A stretch of 64,000 bases of DNA. It comes from Pseudomonadales bacterium. GTDB taxonomy: Bacteria > Pseudomonadota > Gammaproteobacteria > Pseudomonadales > Azotimanducaceae. Made by a program: the position numbers and the translations under genes. A model generated the notes under the pieces. That model saw only the letters and a program-made list of their open reading frames with translations, did no database searches and was not told where the DNA came from. Shown piece after piece: positions 43,888-59,771 of this stretch. The stretch covers positions 1 to 64,000 of the forward strand of contig WTGV01000064.1 in the NCBI GenBank assembly GCA_011525295.1, written 5' to 3'. Numbering within the stretch: the first letter of the stretch is position 1; every line of letters starts with the position of its first letter.

Positions 43888-46065
43888 TCAGTTAAGAATC
43901 CGTGAGGATTTCTCGACCACTGTTCGACCAACAATCGCAGCGTGTTGATATCCTGCATCGAGGAGAGCCGATAAGCACTCGCTAGACACATCGGAGGGTA
44001 CCGCGGCTAAAAGCCCACCACTGGTCTGAGGATCTACTAGTGGTGCAAGATTTTGGTCTCCCAAGTCAGAAGCAACCTCAAAATCGTCTAATGCTTGAAC
44101 ATTTGCATCGTGTAGTGTACTTTTTACTCCCTGACTTAATATGTTTCGAGTACCTGATAGTAAGTTAGCAGAGTTTGCGAACAGTTCGATATTCACGTCC
44201 GAACGCTGTACGAGTTCCGCACAATGACCGACGAGTCCAAATCCACTGATGTCTGTGACTGCTGACGCATCAAACTGGCGGAACAAGGAGGCAGCACGTT
44301 TATTGGAAAGTTCCATACTTTCGATGCATTTCACCAAGTCGGCTGCACGAGTCTTCATATACATTAACCCCGCCAACAGTATCCCAGTGCCCAGTGGTTT
44401 CGTGAGAATCAAATCCTGACCCTGCAACATGCCGGATCGAAACCATGGTGAGTCATTGTGTGTGCCAGTCACTGCAAATCCCAAAGACGCTTCAACACCT
44501 TCGGCAGAATGACCACCGACTAAGGCCACGTTATCTGTGTTAAAAACCGAAACCGCGCCCGATAATACTTGGTAGAAGTCATCCTCCATCAGTGATTCCG
44601 CCATCAATGGGATGGTTACCAGCGCTAAAGCAATTTTGGGAACAGACCCCATAGCATATAGATCATTCAATGCGTGCGCGGCAGCAACCCGTCCAAACCG
44701 AAAAGGATCTGTAATCATCGGTTTAAAGTGATCGCAACTCGTTGCTATCGTGTTGGAACCAAGGTCCACTACGGCGGCATCATCATCTAATCCATTGATT
44801 GTTCCGAGCACATCATTTGCTTTTAACCGAGAGAGGACGCGGTCCAGCAGCTGCGCGCCTAGCTTCGAAGCACAGCCACCACAACGCATTTCATCCACTT
44901 TGGATTGTCTGGGCACAAACGATGTCAAAGCCGGGAACGACATTGCCCTTAACTTTTTAAATCTACGCATAAACTTCACATCGATTCTGTGTTTCCAACG
45001 ACTGATAATTTTCGAGCGCATACACAACGGTCCCTTGGACGCGAGGGCATTGTTGCCCGGTAGGCGCAAGATCGCTAGAGCTTGTCTTTGAGCGTTGTAC
45101 GAACGGAGTGATTTTCCTTTGAGAAATGCTCGCGCGTTGCGTGCAAGAATCGGTCCTTCACGTACTGCGAACACGCCAGACTTTGGTCGTTCCTGACCTA
45201 CGAGACAAACCATGTCGCCGCCAGCAAAGACATTGCGATGCGAAGTACTACGTAGTTTCTTATCAACCTTGAGAAAACCACCAGAGTCAACATCGAATCC
45301 GGACTCCCGAATCCACGCCGGCGCTTCCACGCCGGTAACCCACAAAACATGATCACATGGAATCTTAGCGCCACTTTCCGCTCCTACTTCCTTATCAGTC
45401 ACTGAGGAAACTCGAAAATCGACGAGAAACTTGATGTCATTTCGAGTTAATGTCGCGACAGCTATTTTTCTCACTCGTCGATTGTGTTGAATCATCAGTT
45501 CAGGGTCGGCAGATACGATCGTGATATCGAACACCGACCCAAAACGTTCTCTAACAGCGAGGGCAACTTCAACACTTCCTGGACCTCCTCCAACAACAAC
45601 AAGCTTACTATGCACTCCGGATTCGCCTTGTGCCACGATGTGGTCCCATTCCGTCGTAAAGCGTCCAATTGGTTTTACCGCGGTGACATTCGAGAGACCG
45701 CGAAACTTTATTCCCGGTTCACCACCGGTGTTGACAACTAAACAGTCGTAGCGAAGATCAGGTCTTTCTCGGAGTTTGACACTGTTGTCTGAGGGACTAA
45801 TTTGAACCACTTCATCGACGATTAACCGAGCGTTTGCAAAAGTACACAACTTCGCTAGATCGATGTGAATGTCTTCCCACGAATACATTCCATAGACGAA
45901 TCCCGGGAGCATACCTGAATACGGCGAATGAGCTTCGCGAGCGACCACGGTTATGCGAACATGGCGTTGCGGTCTCATACCGAACATCCGCAAAACTTGC
46001 ACATTTGAGTGCCCTGCACCAACTAAGAGTAGATCGTGCTTATAGTACGATGCAGAATGAATCAA
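43888..46065 (-). CDS. selD: FAD/NAD oxidoreductase-SelD fusion, selenide-water dikinase
   Basis: SelD makes selenophosphate for tRNA-Sec and selenouridine. Here residues 1-~380 form an FAD/NAD(P)-binding domain (LLLVGAGHSNVQVL, and a second LVVVGGGPGSVEV), and ~390-725 form SelD with MRCGGCASKLG (catalytic Cys and Lys) and GLDDDAAVV. Such fusions are known in cyanobacteria and other groups; a flavin reductase supplying selenide is inferred. I chose TTG 46065, with GAG six nt upstream, because the 32 residues added by TTG 46161 look unlike the family. selC lies about 3.5 kb away. Confidence 0.93.
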   Translation of the reverse strand: MIHSASYYKHDLLLVGAGHSNVQVLRMFGMRPQRHVRITVVAREAHSPYSGMLPGFVYGMYSWEDIHIDLAKLCTFANARLIVDEVVQISPSDNSVKLRERPDLRYDCLVVNTGGEPGIKFRGLSNVTAVKPIGRFTTEWDHIVAQGESGVHSKLVVVGGGPGSVEVALAVRERFGSVFDITIVSADPELMIQHNRRVRKIAVATLTRNDIKFLVDFRVSSVTDKEVGAESGAKIPCDHVLWVTGVEAPAWIRESGFDVDSGGFLKVDKKLRSTSHRNVFAGGDMVCLVGQERPKSGVFAVREGPILARNARAFLKGKSLRSYNAQRQALAILRLPGNNALASKGPLCMRSKIISRWKHRIDVKFMRRFKKLRAMSFPALTSFVPRQSKVDEMRCGGCASKLGAQLLDRVLSRLKANDVLGTINGLDDDAAVVDLGSNTIATSCDHFKPMITDPFRFGRVAAAHALNDLYAMGSVPKIALALVTIPLMAESLMEDDFYQVLSGAVSVFNTDNVALVGGHSAEGVEASLGFAVTGTHNDSPWFRSGMLQGQDLILTKPLGTGILLAGLMYMKTRAADLVKCIESMELSNKRAASLFRQFDASAVTDISGFGLVGHCAELVQRSDVNIELFANSANLLSGTRNILSQGVKSTLHDANVQALDDFEVASDLGDQNLAPLVDPQTSGGLLAAVPSDVSSECLSALLDAGYQHAAIVGRTVVEKSSRILN

Positions 46066-46338
46066 GCGACACTCATCCTTAAATGTTGAGAAATCTGGAC
46101 CTCTGTAATGATGTTTTAGTGCTGTATATGAAGGGAAAATCCATTGGCATTGTGTGTCCAATTGAAATCCAAAGTCGCGTCGCTACCTTCAGATCACTAC
46201 GTGATGTAAATTAGTGGATTTGATCCTCTGAATTCGCACAATCCAATGCAAACATAATGATAATGTTTAAGCAGATAAAGCCTAGACTTACAATCTCAGT
46301 TTCTTCAAATTCGCTACTCTCTAGAAAGACGCATCAAT

Positions 46339-47177: not shown

Positions 47178-47705
47178 ATGGTCTTCGAACAGTTCAAATC
47201 AACCGCAGATCAAATTAAGGATAAAGTGAAAGCGAGTGGGGACGAAGTATTTGTTAAAGTTGCGGGAGCCGGAAGACAAGGGCTCGCCAAAGCGGTTAAG
47301 AAACTGTTTGAAGAATACGCGACCTTTGCCCCAATCCTAGAGAGCGCTGGATTCATCGTGGGTGATGTCGAACTCCGACTAACGCTACCGCCCGCGATCG
47401 TAGTATGTATTGAACCTACGGAACCAGACGCATTGGACCGGTTGAAAACTGTGGAAAGCGAATTGGAGTTGGATGACAATCAAAAAAGAGTTTTGCAATT
47501 GATCAAAGAAGCGTACGCGCTAGAAGAAACTGTGAAAGCATACGGACACGAGATCGGTCAAATTGAGCTTGTGTTTAGTGTACCACCAGGAGTGAATGTA
47601 CACCTTAGTTCAAGTCGCTCGCGTGTATTTGGCTCTGTTGATCGTTCCCCCGGTACGTCTGAAGAAACTGATTCAGATTGGTCCACAAACTCTCAAGACA
47701 CCTGA
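47178..47705 (+). CDS. unknown protein with two helix-strand modules
   Basis: The 175-residue product starts at an ATG seven nt after AAGGAGGT (47163-47170), an excellent ribosome site, suggesting high translation. Two similar units are visible: a helix (about 32-57) followed by GDVELRLTLPP (62-72), and a helix (about 102-125) followed by GQIELVFSVPP (127-137). The C-terminus (145-175) is Ser/Asp/Thr-rich and disordered. No signal peptide or membrane helix is present. It is coupled to coaE and overlaps the tail of the convergent copA by 13 nt. I do not recognise the family. Confidence 0.8.
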   Translation: MVFEQFKSTADQIKDKVKASGDEVFVKVAGAGRQGLAKAVKKLFEEYATFAPILESAGFIVGDVELRLTLPPAIVVCIEPTEPDALDRLKTVESELELDDNQKRVLQLIKEAYALEETVKAYGHEIGQIELVFSVPPGVNVHLSSSRSRVFGSVDRSPGTSEETDSDWSTNSQDT

Positions 47706-50083
47706 GAGTTCCACCGTTTCAATAACAACGAATTCGTCACCACGCTGACGCTCGATAGTGCCATTGCTGCGCCAGCAATAGCAGGATCAAGGTATCCTAA
47801 CACCGCTAAAGGTATCATCACAACGTTGTAAATAAAAGCCCAGAAAAGGTTTTGTCGTATCTTCCTGAAGGTCCGAGTGCTGATATCCAAGGTCGCCGCC
47901 ACCAGTCGAGGATCGGGTCGCATTAACGTTACCGGCGCGACTTCCATTGCAATATCGGTTCCGGAGCTCATCGCAATTCCAAGTCGTGCTTGTGCGAGTG
48001 CAGGAGCGTCATTGATTCCATCTCCGACCATTGCTACCGATGTGCCTTCTGTCTGAATTGCTTCAACCTTCTCTACCTTGGTTTCGGGCGTTTGCCGATA
48101 GCCATAAGAAGTGATGCCGAGCACGCGAGCTAGACGTTCGGTGACCTCTTTGCTGTCGCCGCTGAGAATGTGTATCTCGACGTTCCTTTGCTGAAGTTTC
48201 GCGACCGCCTCTCTAGAAGTCGGTCGTTCGATATCCACGAAAACAAACTCCGCCACAACTTCACCAGCAAACAGCAACCACACAGTGCTCTCAAACTCGT
48301 CCGTCACTACTGGTTCATGTCCAAATCGTCGTAATAAACGATCGTTACCCAAGGCACAATCGATATTGTCTACGTTTCCACTAACACCCTCACCGACATA
48401 TGCACGAAAGCCTGATGGAGTAAGAACGTCAATACCCTGCTCTTTTGCATAGTTGAGAAACGCTTTTGCGATGGGGTGTTCACTGAGAGACTGTAGCGCG
48501 ATGGCAGCTTGTAGATAGGTGCCGTACAACTCTGCTTTCCCACTACGTACAACCTGACCTCGAACAAATGAAGGCTTGCCGTGTGTCAGCGTACCGGTTT
48601 TGTCAAACACTACTTCCTGTACACGGTGAGCATGTTCTAAGGCTTCGATGTCGCGAAACAAAATCCCGGCGCGCGCCGCAGTTCCCGTGCCGGTAATCAC
48701 TGCTGTCGGTGTCGCCAATCCTAAGGCACAAGGGCACGCAATGACCAAAACTGACACAGAATTGATGAGTGCAATTTCGAAGTCTCCTACGATGCTCCAA
48801 GCAACTAAGGTGACGAGTGCGATGAGAATCACAACCGGTACAAAGAACCCACTCACTTTGTCGACCAGACGCTGAATATCGGTCTTTCCCACTTGTGCTT
48901 GTTCTACGAGCCGAGCTATGCGATTCAAGGTCGTGTCGTTCCCAACTTTTGTTACTCGTACTACGAGATGGCCGTCTAGATTTACCGCACCTTCATACAC
49001 TTCGTCGCCAATTTGCCGATGCACCGGATTACTTTCACCGGTTATGAGAGATTCGTCAGTATGTGCTTCGCCTTCAATCACCTCTCCATCTGCCGAGATT
49101 CTTTCGCCGGGGATGCACGTGATTACTTCTCTTAGTTCAAGTAGTTCAGTTGGTTTTTCGATCGTCTCGCCTGTTTCGGTTCGAACGCGCACCACTCGTG
49201 GTCGTAAGCTCAGTAGTTCGCGTATTGCCGAAAAAGTTCTTCTTTTTGCGCGCGTTTCTAAGTATTTGCCCCAGAGCACAAGCGTAATAATCACGGCCGC
49301 GGATTCGAAGTACATTTCCCCCTGTGCTGCTTCGCCGTGCTGAATCATGAGAAACCAACTATAGAGGTACGCTGAGGTAGTCCCCAGAACAACTAAGACA
49401 TCCATGTTCGCGCTTCGATTCCTGAGTGCATTGAAAGCACCAATATAGAACTTTCGACCAAACCAGAACTGAACCGGTGTCGCAAAAAGCACTTCAGCTG
49501 CCGGCATCCAATGAAATTGTCGCCAACCGACAAATTGTGCCAACATTTGTAGTACCAACAAAGACGAGAAGAGTGAGGCTAAGAGCGCAGACCGTCGTTC
49601 TTTGGTAACTTCATTTTGAAACTGTTCTGCTTCGTCGTCGGGTTCAGCTCGAGCAATTAAACTAAAACCAGCCGATTGAACTCGACTCATTAGGTCTCTT
49701 TCAGTGACCAACCCTGTGATAGTTCGTATCGTCGCATTCTCGGTCGCAAAGTTCACCTCTGCAGTCTCGACTCCGGGAACTTTGAGCAGCGCATCTTGTA
49801 TCCGACCAGCGCACGCTGTACAAGACATTCCTCCGACTTGGTAGGTCTGTGTATCAACGCCCACGTCAAAGCCGGCACGACGAACCACTCCTGCTAAGTC
49901 TGTCGCGGCTAGACTTTTTGGATCGATACGTAAGTAAGCTTTCTCGGCTGCAAGATTTACTGCGACATCTATCACCCCATGTTCTTTCTTGAATGCAACT
50001 TCTAATCGTTCAACACAGGACCCGCAGGTCATGCCGGTGATGTTGAAGCTTAGCTGTTGGGAGGCACTAACTGACGTGCTCAT
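47693..50083 (-). CDS. copA: copper-exporting P1B-type ATPase
   Basis: This P1B-1 ATPase exports Cu(I). The 796-residue protein has two N-terminal HMA domains with GMTCGSC (Cys20 and Cys23) and GMSCTAC (Cys88 and Cys91), membrane helices, the transmembrane CPC (ACPCALGLATPT), the phosphorylation site DKTGTLTHG, HP motif SEHPIAKA and GDGINDAPAL. Length and domain order are typical. The cytochrome oxidase subunit III gene lies seven nt upstream, pointing to a link with copper use in respiration. It overlaps the unknown gene's end by 13 nt. Confidence 0.96.
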   Translation of the reverse strand: MSTSVSASQQLSFNITGMTCGSCVERLEVAFKKEHGVIDVAVNLAAEKAYLRIDPKSLAATDLAGVVRRAGFDVGVDTQTYQVGGMSCTACAGRIQDALLKVPGVETAEVNFATENATIRTITGLVTERDLMSRVQSAGFSLIARAEPDDEAEQFQNEVTKERRSALLASLFSSLLVLQMLAQFVGWRQFHWMPAAEVLFATPVQFWFGRKFYIGAFNALRNRSANMDVLVVLGTTSAYLYSWFLMIQHGEAAQGEMYFESAAVIITLVLWGKYLETRAKRRTFSAIRELLSLRPRVVRVRTETGETIEKPTELLELREVITCIPGERISADGEVIEGEAHTDESLITGESNPVHRQIGDEVYEGAVNLDGHLVVRVTKVGNDTTLNRIARLVEQAQVGKTDIQRLVDKVSGFFVPVVILIALVTLVAWSIVGDFEIALINSVSVLVIACPCALGLATPTAVITGTGTAARAGILFRDIEALEHAHRVQEVVFDKTGTLTHGKPSFVRGQVVRSGKAELYGTYLQAAIALQSLSEHPIAKAFLNYAKEQGIDVLTPSGFRAYVGEGVSGNVDNIDCALGNDRLLRRFGHEPVVTDEFESTVWLLFAGEVVAEFVFVDIERPTSREAVAKLQQRNVEIHILSGDSKEVTERLARVLGITSYGYRQTPETKVEKVEAIQTEGTSVAMVGDGINDAPALAQARLGIAMSSGTDIAMEVAPVTLMRPDPRLVAATLDISTRTFRKIRQNLFWAFIYNVVMIPLAVLGYLDPAIAGAAMALSSVSVVTNSLLLKRWNSQVS

Positions 50084-50089
50084 ACAAAA

Positions 50090-50704
50090 CTACGTCGAAA
50101 CAAAAAGAGCTAGGATGACAACCCAAACCAAAAGCAAAAAGTGCCAGTAAATCGCGCATAGTTCGACACTCAGCCGGATGTGTGCATAGTCCCCTTTTTT
50201 GGCGCGCATACGCCATAACGCGCGACACCAAGCAATCAATCCTCCGATGAGGTGAACTGCATGGAGTGCGGTGAGGACATAGAAAAAGGCGTTGGAGAGA
50301 TTGCGCTGTGCGGCATATCCAAGCTCGATTAGTTGCCACCATACAACTATCTGTAACACCAAGAACACGACTGTTAGGAACCCGCCAATCAAAAAAACAA
50401 ACATTCCATCTCTATTATTGTTGACGAGTCGTCGAGAATACTCCAATGCCATGCTCACTGCTACTAAGACAACGCTATTGACCCAGAGTAAGAACGGCTC
50501 AGGCATTGGTACCCAATCGGTCGCTAGCGCGATGCGCATGTGAGTAGCCGCAAACAACAGAAAGAAAACACTTCCCACGACGCACAGGAAAATATATAGG
50601 GCTACCTTGCGGTCGTGTGCTCGGAACGATTTCGTGTGTAATGACTCCACGTTGTCACCGGTTTCCACCCAGGGTTTTTCTGTTAAACGACGAAAAATGC
50701 TCAT
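50090..50704 (-). CDS. haem-copper oxidase subunit III
   Basis: The 204-residue protein has five predicted membrane helices and COX3 features: HMRIALATDW, then LQIVVWWQLIELG, and FYVLTALHAVHLIGGLIAW (about 138-156) with its conserved His pair, then SVELCAIYWHFLLLVW. Subunit I and II genes are absent next to it, so it is an orphan here; it could serve an oxidase encoded elsewhere or a NorE-type role. The ATG at 50704 was preferred over a frame opening at 50767. Seven nt separate it from copA. Function beyond the family is inference. Confidence 0.82.
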   Translation of the reverse strand: MSIFRRLTEKPWVETGDNVESLHTKSFRAHDRKVALYIFLCVVGSVFFLLFAATHMRIALATDWVPMPEPFLLWVNSVVLVAVSMALEYSRRLVNNNRDGMFVFLIGGFLTVVFLVLQIVVWWQLIELGYAAQRNLSNAFFYVLTALHAVHLIGGLIAWCRALWRMRAKKGDYAHIRLSVELCAIYWHFLLLVWVVILALFVST

Positions 50705-50945
50705 ATATATAACTTTGTTTCCTCTCTTTATTGTATTGGACGGGAGGTGAAAAAATCCGTTGCTCACGCCACTCGAACTAGAGCCTTCCTTTAACTACGA
50801 GGTACGATGTAGTACTGAATGGCGCGTCTTCTAGTCCGATTTAGCAGACGGACAGAACCGAACATAATTCTATAATCTGAAAATTGTTTCGCTTGTATTG
50901 AAGATACCAATCGAAGTAAATACGTAACTAGGATAGCAGTTTTAT

Positions 50946-57123: not shown

Positions 57124-57573
57124 ATGTTTAGTAGTTTAAAGACTTTATTTTCAAAGGCTGACTCGCAACACACATTAGAGTTTGAAGAACAAGATTTAGT
57201 TCCAATCGCAGCCGCTATGGTTCTACTAGAAGTTGCTTGGGCTGACCACGTATTACAACCTGAAGAAAAAGATCTCATTGAAACTGCACTAACACAGCTC
57301 TATGGCTTTGATCAGACACAAGCTGGTAAAGTCTTGAAGGAAGCCGAGAGTGAACACAAGCGGTCGACTGGGCTTCACAAGTTTACAAGGACCCTTAATG
57401 AGCAACTGGACCTAGAGGAGAAGATAGCTCTACTAACGCACCTATGGCGAATGAACAGCTTAGAAAGCACTTCGTTCCACTACGAAGAACATGTAATTCG
57501 CAAAATCGCCGACCTGTTGCATTTGCGTCATTCAGAATTCATCAAAGCGAAGTTAGACGCGAAACAAAATTAG
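57124..57573 (+). CDS. TerB-like protein
   Basis: The 149-residue protein is helical and matches the tellurite-resistance TerB family: LVPIAAAMVLLEVAWADHVL (about 25-44) then EEKDLIETAL and a second acidic helix with LTHLWRMN. The AD...E pattern could bind a metal through Asp/Glu residues. TerB proteins often associate with membrane stress systems. It overlaps the end of bufC (convergent) by four nt, so it is on the other strand and probably unlinked to the bufferin operon. Confidence 0.82.
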   Translation: MFSSLKTLFSKADSQHTLEFEEQDLVPIAAAMVLLEVAWADHVLQPEEKDLIETALTQLYGFDQTQAGKVLKEAESEHKRSTGLHKFTRTLNEQLDLEEKIALLTHLWRMNSLESTSFHYEEHVIRKIADLLHLRHSEFIKAKLDAKQN

Positions 57574-58355
57574 GCGGCTGAAGTGTCGATTTGTTTGTTT
57601 TGGGATGTTAAGATCACCCCTCTTTTATTAAATGCCTGAATCGTGGGTACTAACTGGTTCGTCAGCAATTCGCGAGCAATGTCAAACTCGCCACTTAATC
57701 TAGCTGTCAGAGCACTTAGAGTGAGAGGGTGTTCCACCGATTCCAACATTCGAAACGTGTACGCGTTGGTTCCTAAAACTTCAACCTGATCGTTTCGATC
57801 GCGAAATGCAATTAACCATGTAGGTTGATTTGGTTGTTCGCTATTCCACGTAGATGGAGTCAGTTTATGAACCGGCCATTGATAAGACAGCAATCGTACT
57901 GTGGATGATAGCTGGACACAGGTAGCGTCCCCACTGATATCAAGATTAGCGCACTTCGGCGCATCCGGAGCTAGACGTAGTTGCATTCTCATCGCATCTA
58001 AATGGCACATTTCACTCATGAACGGATACTCGGTACTCTCCTGATTGGAATTCTCTAAATACTCTAAGAAAGCAATCGGAATGTCTTTGAAATAGGGCGA
58101 AGAGCAAGACTGTTCTCGCATGAATCCTCGAATGAGAGTGTCCCATGTATCGTCATCGACGAAAGGCCGGAACGACTTAAACGATTTCGCACAGAACGAA
58201 GCCAAGTTGTTGAAAAAGAGACGTTTGTAAATGTCCATACGTCGTTGTTCAATACCTGGAGGCACGGTATTGTGCGCAGGGTCTCGAATGTAATCGGCGA
58301 ACTGCTTTTGAATTCGTTGATACGCGGGTAAATCGTCGCCTAAACTACGGTCCAC
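57570..58355 (-). CDS. bufC: BufC, DUF2063 partner of the bufferin enzyme
   Basis: The 261-residue protein matches DUF2063: LPAYQRIQKQFADYIRDP at the start (about 9-26), IYKRLFFNNLASFC, and the later CHLDAMRM helix. It is the recruiting partner of the MNIO enzyme in bufferin systems. The start is GTG at 58355, overlapping the end of bufB by 11 nt, so the two are translationally coupled. It ends in convergence with the TerB-like gene. Confidence 0.88.
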   Translation of the reverse strand: MDRSLGDDLPAYQRIQKQFADYIRDPAHNTVPPGIEQRRMDIYKRLFFNNLASFCAKSFKSFRPFVDDDTWDTLIRGFMREQSCSSPYFKDIPIAFLEYLENSNQESTEYPFMSEMCHLDAMRMQLRLAPDAPKCANLDISGDATCVQLSSTVRLLSYQWPVHKLTPSTWNSEQPNQPTWLIAFRDRNDQVEVLGTNAYTFRMLESVEHPLTLSALTARLSGEFDIARELLTNQLVPTIQAFNKRGVILTSQNKQIDTSAA

Positions 58356-59211
58356 GCTTGGTTTGCTCCGATTTGGCGTTATCGCATTGTTGTTGGTACT
58401 CTTTGATCCGAGAAACTTCCGATATTAATTCGGGGATCGCCGGAAAGTTAAAGTCTCGTTCTAATAGTGTTGGGATCGTTCCATATCGCTGGTAGACATG
58501 TTCAAGTAATTGCCAAACCGGATCAGCTACTGCAGCTGCGTGTGTATCAATCCTCAAATCTTCTGCTTCTTTAAAGTGTCCTGCGATGTGAATATAGGTT
58601 ACTCTTGAGATCGGTAGAGTGTCAATGAATTCGTAAGGATCGTATCCGAAGTTCACGCTGTTCACATATGCATTGTTGACATCGAGTAAGAGATTGCAGT
58701 CCGCTTCCGTGAGCACGGCATTAATGAATTCACTTTCGCTAAGTTCTTGACCTGGAGCGGCGTAGTATGAAACGTGTTCAACAGCAATTTTTCGCTCTAG
58801 CACCTCTTGTACGGTACGAATTCTGGATGCTACATGTCGCACCGCATCTTCGGTGAAAGGAATTGGCATCAGATCATAGAGATGACCATGATCGCTACAT
58901 GCGCTCAAGTGATCCGAATAGAGTGAGATGTTGTGTGTGTCGAGAAATTCTCGAACACTCGCTACAAAGTCCAAATCTAAGGGGCTAGGACCACCGATCG
59001 AGAGCGATAGTCCGTGGCAAACTACCGGGAATCGTTCCGCGTACGTCCGAAATTCCCGCCCAGAACGACCACCGACATCAATCCAATTTTCTGGCGCAAC
59101 TTCCCAGAAGTCGACATTCTCATTAATGAGTTCCGGATGCTCGCGGAGCGCGCGAAACATACCACGACGCAGGCCTAGACCGGCGCCTCGAATAGATAGT
59201 TGTTGGAGCAC
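58345..59211 (-). CDS. bufB: BufB, MNIO (DUF692) iron-dependent modification enzyme
   Basis: DUF692 enzymes are multinuclear iron oxidases with a TIM-barrel fold that modify Cys in peptide precursors. The 288-residue protein shows the expected ligands: VVCHGLSLSIGG (about 62-73), LYSDHLSAC, EHVSYYA, LLLDVNNAYVNSVNFGYDP, YIHIAGHFKE, DTHAAAV and LLERDFNFP. IRGAGLGLRR at the N-terminus is a family trait. The GTG start at 59211 has no clear Shine-Dalgarno; it lies directly after the terminator-like hairpin. It acts with bufC on the precursor bufA, copper chelation being the family role. Confidence 0.92.
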   Translation of the reverse strand: MLQQLSIRGAGLGLRRGMFRALREHPELINENVDFWEVAPENWIDVGGRSGREFRTYAERFPVVCHGLSLSIGGPSPLDLDFVASVREFLDTHNISLYSDHLSACSDHGHLYDLMPIPFTEDAVRHVASRIRTVQEVLERKIAVEHVSYYAAPGQELSESEFINAVLTEADCNLLLDVNNAYVNSVNFGYDPYEFIDTLPISRVTYIHIAGHFKEAEDLRIDTHAAAVADPVWQLLEHVYQRYGTIPTLLERDFNFPAIPELISEVSRIKEYQQQCDNAKSEQTKRGP

Positions 59212-59223
59212 AAGTGAAAAACA

Positions 59224-59266
59224 GACGAATTGTGGTTCGGACTTAAATTCGGAACCACAATTCGTC
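59224..59266 (-). terminator. strong hairpin with T-run between bufA and bufB
   Basis: A perfect 15-bp stem, GACGAATTGTGGTTC with GAACCACAATTCGTC and a 13-nt loop, is followed on the minus strand by TGTTTTTCAC. This is a good Rho-independent terminator. It lies between the precursor gene and the maturation genes of the same operon, so partial read-through would give more precursor than enzyme. The bufB start lies about 12 nt beyond the hairpin. Confidence 0.88.
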
Positions 59267-59299
59267 AGTTAAAACGAAAGTTTGTATGGAAAAAGGAGA

Positions 59300-59644
59300 T
59301 TACTCCTCGGTGGTTTCCTCTTCTTCTTCCTCGTCGGCGTCTTCGTCGTCTTCGTCGGCGTCTTCTTCTTCACCGCACTGACCTTCGCCACACCCGCCTT
59401 CGTCTTCTCCACATTCACCTTCATCATCGCCTTCTTCGTCGTCTTCGTCGTCGCCGCATTGACCTTCGCCACACGAAGCTTCTTCTTCGTCTTCAGCGGC
59501 TAATACATCGATATCGTCGAGAGACTCTGCTACGAATAGATTGGTAGCATCTTCGTCAAGAGAAGCACTGAGGCTTACACCGAGAGAAGCAGCCATAAAC
59601 GCACCAACACCAATGATGGCAGGTTTGGATTCATTAATTTTCAT
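59300..59644 (-). CDS. bufA: BufA-like bufferin precursor, highly acidic
   Basis: The 114-residue precursor has a secretion signal-like hydrophobic segment (about 9-28) and a leader rich in Asp/Glu. The core (about 55-92) has EASCG, then EGQCG (60-64), EGECG (75-79), EGGCG (82-86) and EGQCG (87-91): four copies of the EGxCG pattern that the MNIO enzyme modifies in bufferins, with Lys replaced by Gln, Glu or Gly. Five Cys total. The remainder of the core and the tail (92-114) are almost pure Glu/Asp. GAGGA before the ATG fits. The bufB and bufC genes follow after a terminator hairpin. Copper binding is inferred from the family. Confidence 0.85.
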   Translation of the reverse strand: MKINESKPAIIGVGAFMAASLGVSLSASLDEDATNLFVAESLDDIDVLAAEDEEEASCGEGQCGDDEDDEEGDDEGECGEDEGGCGEGQCGEEEDADEDDEDADEEEEEETTEE

Positions 59645-59750
59645 GGAAAAATCCTCACAAGGGTTAGGGGTTTTGTAACTAAAAACTGCCTTGTTACAGT
59701 TTCAACCTACATTGCAATTAGTAGAAGTGACAATATTACTCACAAATAAT

Positions 59751-59771
59751 TCCATTATTCCTCCATTATTC
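59751..59771. repeat. direct repeat upstream of bufA
   Basis: TCCATTATTC occurs at 59751-59760 and 59762-59771 on the plus strand, an 11-nt period, about 107-127 nt before the bufA start. Such in-phase repeats can be a regulator's operator, but no known copper-responsive (CueR, CopY) motif is recognised here, and A/T-rich context makes chance possible. Confidence 0.35.

Follow-up and report, generated by a model that had tools for sequence, protein, structure and literature searches.

Can a peptide of the HvfABC/oxazolin/captophorin type still work when no lysine is left in front of its cysteines and most of its core is acidic? This question is raised by a three-gene operon in the first 64,000 nucleotides (here called the window) of contig WTGV01000064.1, assembly GCA_011525295.1, from a Pseudomonadales bacterium of the family Azotimanducaceae. 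The operon lies on the minus strand and consists of a gene for an hvfA-like precursor (59300..59644, 114 amino acids, ATG start), hvfB for a maturase of the MNIO family, DUF692 (58345..59211, 288 amino acids, with GTG as the listed start, from which the true start may differ), and hvfC for a partner with DUF2063 and NGO1945_C domains (57570..58355, 261 amino acids), with hvfB and hvfC overlapping by 11 bases. The variant of the HvfABC captophorins that it represents, hyperacidic and free of lysine, is real and probably works. The coordinates, the gene order and the overlapping maturation genes had been given in an earlier sequence-only reading of this DNA and are borne out by the open reading frames (ORFs).

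The precursor has five Cys-Gly sites, EASCG (Cys58), EGQCG (Cys63), EGECG (Cys78), EGGCG (Cys85) and EGQCG (Cys90), with Cys58 directly preceding an EGQCG motif. The sequence-only reading had the four EGxCG motifs right, with x as Gln, Glu, Gly and Gln, and overlooked Cys58. Because none of the four has Lys, the repeated EGKCG being absent, the precursor is filed here as a variant and not as a typical member. In 200,000 shuffles of the residues of the 70-residue C-terminal part four EGxCG motifs were never reached, the maximum being two, and the five cysteines, the presumed sites of modification, fall in a stretch (59372..59476, minus strand) whose cysteines are all present in relatives. It is followed by a C-terminal tail of 23 residues (59303..59371, minus strand), 19 of them Asp or Glu, which had aptly been called nearly pure Glu/Asp, and genus relatives are also acidic-tailed. 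Measured over a 67-residue core there are 40 Asp/Glu (60%), no Lys or Arg and a net charge of -40. The window and sister sequences top the ranking by acid content of 91 distinct precursor ORFs, a set that omits the X-masked precursors (L010/L038 and L045; L numbers are loci, G numbers genomes) and includes some over-long starts and one contig fragment (L116); core charge across it runs from -41 to +19, which would be the span of the class. As far as the 44 long ORFs of the window show, with a median of 13% Asp+Glu, an acidic proteome is rejected as the cause. The N-terminus, judged by eye, is signal-peptide-like, MKINESKPAIIGVGAFMAASLGVSLSA, with a hydrophobic stretch at residues 9-27.

Which class of MNIO system the operon belongs to is suggested by its profile matches. 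HvfB is matched by PF05114 (338.9 bits) and by the NCBIfam model NF003818 (424.9 bits, cut-off 360), HvfC by PF09836 (76.8 bits), PF22106 (56.5 bits) and NF050145, the NCBIfam model of the HvfC/PME1 type of DUF2063/RRE (RiPP recognition element; RiPP, ribosomally synthesised and post-translationally modified peptide) partner (213.7 bits, cut-off 142). The AlphaFold2 model of HvfB, with a predicted local distance difference test (pLDDT) score of 86.5 from a 26-row alignment, has 3bww as its best PDB match (template modelling score, TM, 0.78/0.88), with TglHI and MbnBC entries next. The precursor is recognised as an ORF with orthologues upstream of hvfB in L032, L033, L076 and L035 and by the HvfA-type domain model NF050137; it falls far below the HvfA equivalog NF050188 (18.4 of 95), which is also narrowly missed by the EGKCG-rich precursor of L041 (85.9 of 95). 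Because the HvfB and HvfC models and the fold match are hit and the BufB equivalog NF050167 is not reached by the window maturase (256 bits, cut-off 310), the operon is, on its sequence, to be assigned to the HvfABC/oxazolin/captophorin class (Buf_EGKCG) and not to Buf1 or Buf2. A bufferin sensu stricto, that is Buf1 with DUF2282 or Buf2 with 6-12 cysteines, would share the A-B-C order and the partner type (PMC12452194; this and the other papers cited are drawn on from the available part of their text), but with no DUF2282, five cysteines in place of 6 or 12 and a BufB score below the cut-off whilst HvfB passes its own, it is scarcely credible and has been rejected. What stands of the bufferin-type RiPP operon of the sequence-only reading is thus an MNIO/DUF2063 operon with a hyperacidic precursor without Lys before Cys, what does not is the class. 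A chimaera of Buf_EGKC with EF-hand_5 has been rejected likewise, the precursor having no Pfam match at E values up to 1, neither to DUF2282 nor to EF-hand_5.

The maturase retains the published metal-site, base and specificity residues. Substitution of the active-site ligands, which the sequence-only reading had named as grounds for doubt, was looked for, and the eight metal-site residues H66, H101, E145, N179, N180, H208, D222 and H224 are identical in all 111 aligned HvfB rows, not all of which are distinct. In HvfB of Haemophilus influenzae the loss of N175, D242 or H244 abolishes activity (PMC13419390), and these residues, mapped through the 3bww alignment, correspond to N179 or N180, D222 and H224 of the window. 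The published specificity residues of FonB, Arg15, Arg16 and Phe250, and its base, Asp249 (PMC13097082), were matched by motif to R15, R16, F254 and D253, of which R15 is found in 109 of the 111 rows (Lys in two), R16 in all, and D253 and F254 in 110, with one row ending earlier.

The genes themselves are also constrained. The ratio of non-synonymous to synonymous substitution (dN/dS, Nei-Gojobori, window against relatives) is 0.06-0.18 for hvfA, 0.07-0.23 for hvfB and 0.16-0.24 for hvfC, where one hvfB pair is saturated, the hvfC values come from two relatives, and one extra pair of relatives enters for hvfA and hvfB. It is apparent that hvfA is under purifying selection, and all five cysteines are retained in L032, L033, L035 and L076. 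Conservation and purifying selection of the precursor make it likely that the variant works, as the sequence-only reading had proposed, with the residues of the enzyme kept as well; the part of that proposal which sits badly with published data is the Glu site, discussed below.

The acidic form without Lys seems to be typical of the genus and not a local oddity. Before Cys-Gly the 66 sites in 16 genus precursors have E 26 times, K 18, Q 15, G four and S three times (E/Q 41), against K 442, S 72, A 10, T seven and others 13 times (E+Q 3) at 544 sites in 72 other precursors; the enrichment of E/Q gives p 1e-42 in Fisher's exact test, which with related sequences is a description and not an independent test. 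The site count covers 88 precursors, with the masked L010 counted at readable sites and the over-long ORFs L047 and L050 adding stray sites, and the precursor of G012, only a fragment (EGSCGEGSCG), is excluded from the genus count. Acidity is present in the 16 genus precursors measured. A relative of HvfB occurs in 47 of 58 related genomes, the own genome included, and on GTDB contigs 192 stretches encode one, of which the best 80 were used. CGEGxCG is found in 18/18 genus genomes, though a few places are not precursors and G012 has only its fragment, and CGEG[Q/E]CG in 13/18 genus genomes as against 7/188 other genomes of the family, where by eye it lies in precursors in G509, G570, G571, G572 and G592, in an iron-sulfur protein in G438 and in a spurious frame in G028. 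Gln before Cys-Gly thus recurs in the family members G509 and G570-572. In a sample of 369 genomes from the class, 193 have CGEGxCG with any x, non-precursors included, and seven have CGEG[Q/E]CG, namely the own genome, five with what by eye are molybdenum-hydroxylase-type iron-sulfur subunits, and one with a 28-residue frame, so that within this sample no such precursor was found beyond the own genome.

How the form may have arisen can be followed through the states within the genus. EGECG and EGKCG alternate in G003, G006, G010 and G014, one Lys is left in G011 and G002 (AKCG-EGQCG-...), and none is left in the window, G013 and G008; G004 represents a separate state in which four of four sites have Glu (EEEE) and where the hvfB ORF has no stops. 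On a tree of HvfB the acidity of the precursor switches three times or more and the Lys-free state four times or more, acidity being defined as Asp+Glu minus Lys+Arg of at least 0.25 of the core, which makes 22 of 88 precursors acidic. The tree was made by a quick method from 101 rows, 13 of them without a precursor, with the Shimodaira-Hasegawa-like approximate likelihood ratio test (SH-aLRT) alone as branch support, 34 of 97 inner branches being starred, and it leaves out a second copy of the window protein as well as L032-L039 and L076, which are duplicate loci. Scanning the columns of HvfB turned up associations with acidity such as F19 and D100 among the matches listed, their significance being out of reach with acidity changing only three times on the tree. 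Three loci, L095, L104 and L109, form a second acidic line of precursors with Ser, and some Thr, for Lys before Cys-Gly (SSSSST, SSSSSS), and L155 (G092) has a basic precursor with EGQCG-EGRCG pairs, Gln and Arg standing before Cys. Because this precursor has Gln and Arg without acidity, the replacement of Lys and acidity can be separated.

The precursor does not always stay with its enzymes. In G001, G005, G009, G015, G016 and G017 hvfBC have no precursor in front, hvfB starting no more than a few dozen bases from, or slightly inside, the end of an ORF for a DUF3418 helicase-type protein; in the window a gene of this type precedes hvfA (DUF3418 identified by profile in the window and G016, elsewhere by eye). 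The acidic precursor of these six genomes (EGECG, EGKCG, EGQCG) is found elsewhere, on another contig or, in G017, about 215 kb away. Stand-alone precursor genes are known for Buf1 and Buf2 (PMC12452194). The neighbours of the unlinked precursor are alike in four regions (G005, G009, G015, G017), one of them, profiled in G017, having FAN1 and VRR-NUC domains, and a large protein of 702-763 amino acids adjoins it in four regions (L160 6204-8495 in G017, with counterparts in L159, L161 and L162), with no Pfam match in the copy tested.

What the operon might do can be put together from its parts. HvfC would grip the leader of the HvfA precursor, and HvfB, an iron enzyme, would oxidise the cysteines of the EGxCG motifs, most likely to 5-thiooxazoles with four hydrogens lost per site, here at sites preceded by Gln, Gly, Ser and perhaps Glu. 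The product would be exported via a Sec-type signal peptide and would bind Cu(I) outside the cytoplasm. In the genus most of the lysines before Cys have been swapped for E, Q, G or S and the acidic spacers and tail expanded, with all lysines gone in the window, leaving what would be a flexible polyanion. The acid may keep the copper-loaded peptide soluble and add carboxylate ligands, and a hairpin after hvfA would probably yield more precursor than enzyme. Going by the family, copper buffering would be the most likely function: products of MNIO-PME1 clusters that contain 5-thiooxazoles are in general Cu binders (PMC13097082), and Cu(I) is bound by the Microbulbifer product, whose modified MmrA slightly aided the growth of E. 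coli under copper (PMC12538549). Taken together, we consider it fairly likely that the operon makes a polyanionic captophorin of the HvfABC type that works, is exported and binds Cu(I).

A number of observations weigh against this. NF050137 is passed only narrowly by the window precursor (20.1 bits, cut-off 19.5) and is not reached by the precursors of two genus relatives tested, and the AlphaFold2 model of the precursor is uninformative (pLDDT 50.9, 10 rows). There is no metal-regulated gene in the operon, DoxX is on another contig, and the Cu P-type ATPase with two HMA domains (47693-50083, minus strand) lies about 7-7.5 kb from the operon, with a Glu/Gln-type tRNA synthetase gene, lpxC, two MgtE-type genes, a TerB-like gene and others in between. 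In Microbulbifer itself the gene products escaped detection whether or not copper was added, and the authors hesitated to ascribe protection to them (PMC12538549). Finally, Glu is natural at one of the five window sites and at all four in G004, with the published specificity residues unchanged. When both repeats of its substrate were changed, FonBC tolerated A, R and T before Cys in vitro whereas E and F severely impaired it, Q, G and S going without mention in this position-3 series in the available text (PMC13097082); the sequence-only reading had taken Lys before Cys as the rule of the class, which these tolerated residues and the natural occurrence of Ser, Ala, Thr and Arg contradict. Of the residues before Cys in the window it is only Glu that is contradicted by substrate data, as far as the available text of that paper goes, and either other residues of the enzyme matter or the Glu sites stay unmodified.

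The second of these options would mean a mixed product, with HvfB modifying the Gln, Gly and Ser sites only and the Glu sites left as free cysteines, plain thiolate ligands or disulfides. The poor performance of FonBC on Glu and the unchanged specificity residues suit such a product, as do the EGECGEGKCG pairs of G003, G006, G010 and G014, which look as if one site were exempt; in G004, however, the precursor is all Glu and yet the hvfB ORF has no stops, and this enzyme would have no substrate. A mixed product is therefore a possibility to be held tentatively. The other option, about equally tentative, is that HvfBC of the genus has changed at positions other than the published specificity residues so as to accept Glu, Gln, Gly and Ser, and that the product is a bifunctional metal buffer, in which thiooxazoles would take up Cu(I) and the carboxylate tail would serve a second cation or solubility. 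Candidate changes are E100D and G225A, which among the rows compared are mostly limited to the genus: D100, beside H101, is found in 17/18 genus rows (E in G012) and A225, beside H224, in 16/18 (S in G004, G in G012), each residue also occurring in three other rows. Both are common by descent and prove nothing on specificity.

It could also be that the peptide serves a role other than copper, be it another metal, Ca, redox stress or something host-related. A polyacidic tail suits hard cations, fusions to EF-hands are known in the class (PMC12452194), and the undetected products of Microbulbifer would fit as well, but the general copper binding of thiooxazole products and the slight gain from MmrA speak for copper, and the window precursor itself matches no EF-hand or other Pfam domain; we regard such a role as rather unlikely. 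Less probable by far is that slippage in GAN-rich repeats made the precursor acidic whilst it decays as a substrate. The low-complexity runs of GAA, GAC and GAT in hvfA and the borderline profile score would be consistent with drift, and in G007 the precursor is in two differing pieces on two contigs (L116, L134), one with altered motifs, through either an assembly break or decay. Against this, hvfA has a low dN/dS with hvfB and hvfC constrained too, five cysteines are kept in four relatives and acidity is shared by 16 genus precursors, and it is because of the substitution rates above all that drift is unlikely.

Returning to the captophorin reading, its nearest likenesses lie among described HvfABC-type systems. 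The oxazolin system, HvfABC of Haemophilus influenzae, has the same HvfB and HvfC profiles, the counterparts of N175, D242 and H244 and several EGxCG motifs (PMC13419390, PMC13097082), and differs in that the window has Lys replaced by Q, E, G or S, a core that is 60% acidic without Lys or Arg, and DoxX on a different contig. Fontiphorin, from FonABC of Fontimonas thermophila, shares a minimal three-gene cluster and Arg15, Arg16, Asp and Phe at matching places, whereas FonA has Lys-Cys repeats and FonBC is poor on the position-3 Glu that is natural in the window (PMC13097082). The bulbicupramide cluster mmrABC of Microbulbifer is likewise an A-B-C cluster of a marine gammaproteobacterium. Its precursor also has EGxCG repeats, but these are EGKCG, and acidity is not described in the available text (PMC12538549). 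With the bufferins Buf1 and Buf2 there is in common an MNIO with a DUF2063 partner and a precursor with a signal peptide, a putative one in the window, the precursors there being of the DUF2282 or 6/12-Cys type and the BufB model not being reached by the window enzyme (PMC12452194). In literature searches for EGQCG, EGECG, EGGCG, EGSCG, captophorin and MNIO/thiooxazole/DUF692 the variant was not described among the main-text matches listed, those for the motif strings not dealing with MNIO; a motif table of PMC13097082 may yet list it. The operon and its relatives offer natural substrates and enzymes for the question of what sets the choice of Cys by MNIOs, left partly open in the available text of PMC13097082, and the window and the all-Glu precursor of G004 bear on how general the block of FonBC by position-3 Glu may be. 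A Lys-free and presumably very soluble captophorin might also be spared the aggregation that copper is reported to induce in EGKCG peptides (PMC13097082).

The hairpin assigned a role above is a terminator-like stem-loop between hvfA and hvfB (59224..59266, minus strand), with a 15-bp stem, two inner pairs and, at its T-rich end, TGTTTTTC. Its fold energy is -26.4 kcal/mol (z -6.7), with none of 200 shuffles as good. Over six sequences, the window included, 96.1% of cells are paired and in two pairs both partners have changed, but the covariation score, clear against slid structures, is also attained by 53 of 500 shuffled controls; pairing and position are conserved and covariation is not proven. 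Of 21 loci tried, 13 allowed the gap between hvfA and hvfB to be placed. The same stem is found in the window and four close relatives, and a stem of other sequence in L036, L037, L039, L040 and L068, of which L040 and L068 are GC-rich, making stems easy; L043, L047 and L111 have short gaps with no notable stem. A consensus terminator scan did not list the hairpin, its loop apparently being too long for the scan when the unbroken stem is taken as the boundary, and a search of Rfam gave no match. It may be a partial terminator or a processing site that favours precursor over enzyme. Upstream of hvfA (59702-59755, minus strand) there is in addition a conserved GGAGG-AATA-ATG with a short frame, MELFVSNIVTSTNCNVG, of 17 codons and a stop, which runs on into hvfA in L076 and has a GTG start in L035, and is either a leader peptide or chance.

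The wider surroundings hold a few further genes. A Cu ATPase within 20 kb of hvfB on the same contig is also present in G008, G010, G011, G013 and G014, and in the window a COX3-like gene (heme-copper oxidase subunit III; 50090-50767, minus strand) adjoins it. The TerB-like gene (57124-57573, plus strand) converges on hvfC, their ends overlapping by four bases (57570-57573). Further away on the minus strand (43888-46161) lies a gene for a pyridine-nucleotide disulfide oxidoreductase fused with AIRS domains, a fusion which we take to be SelD-like.

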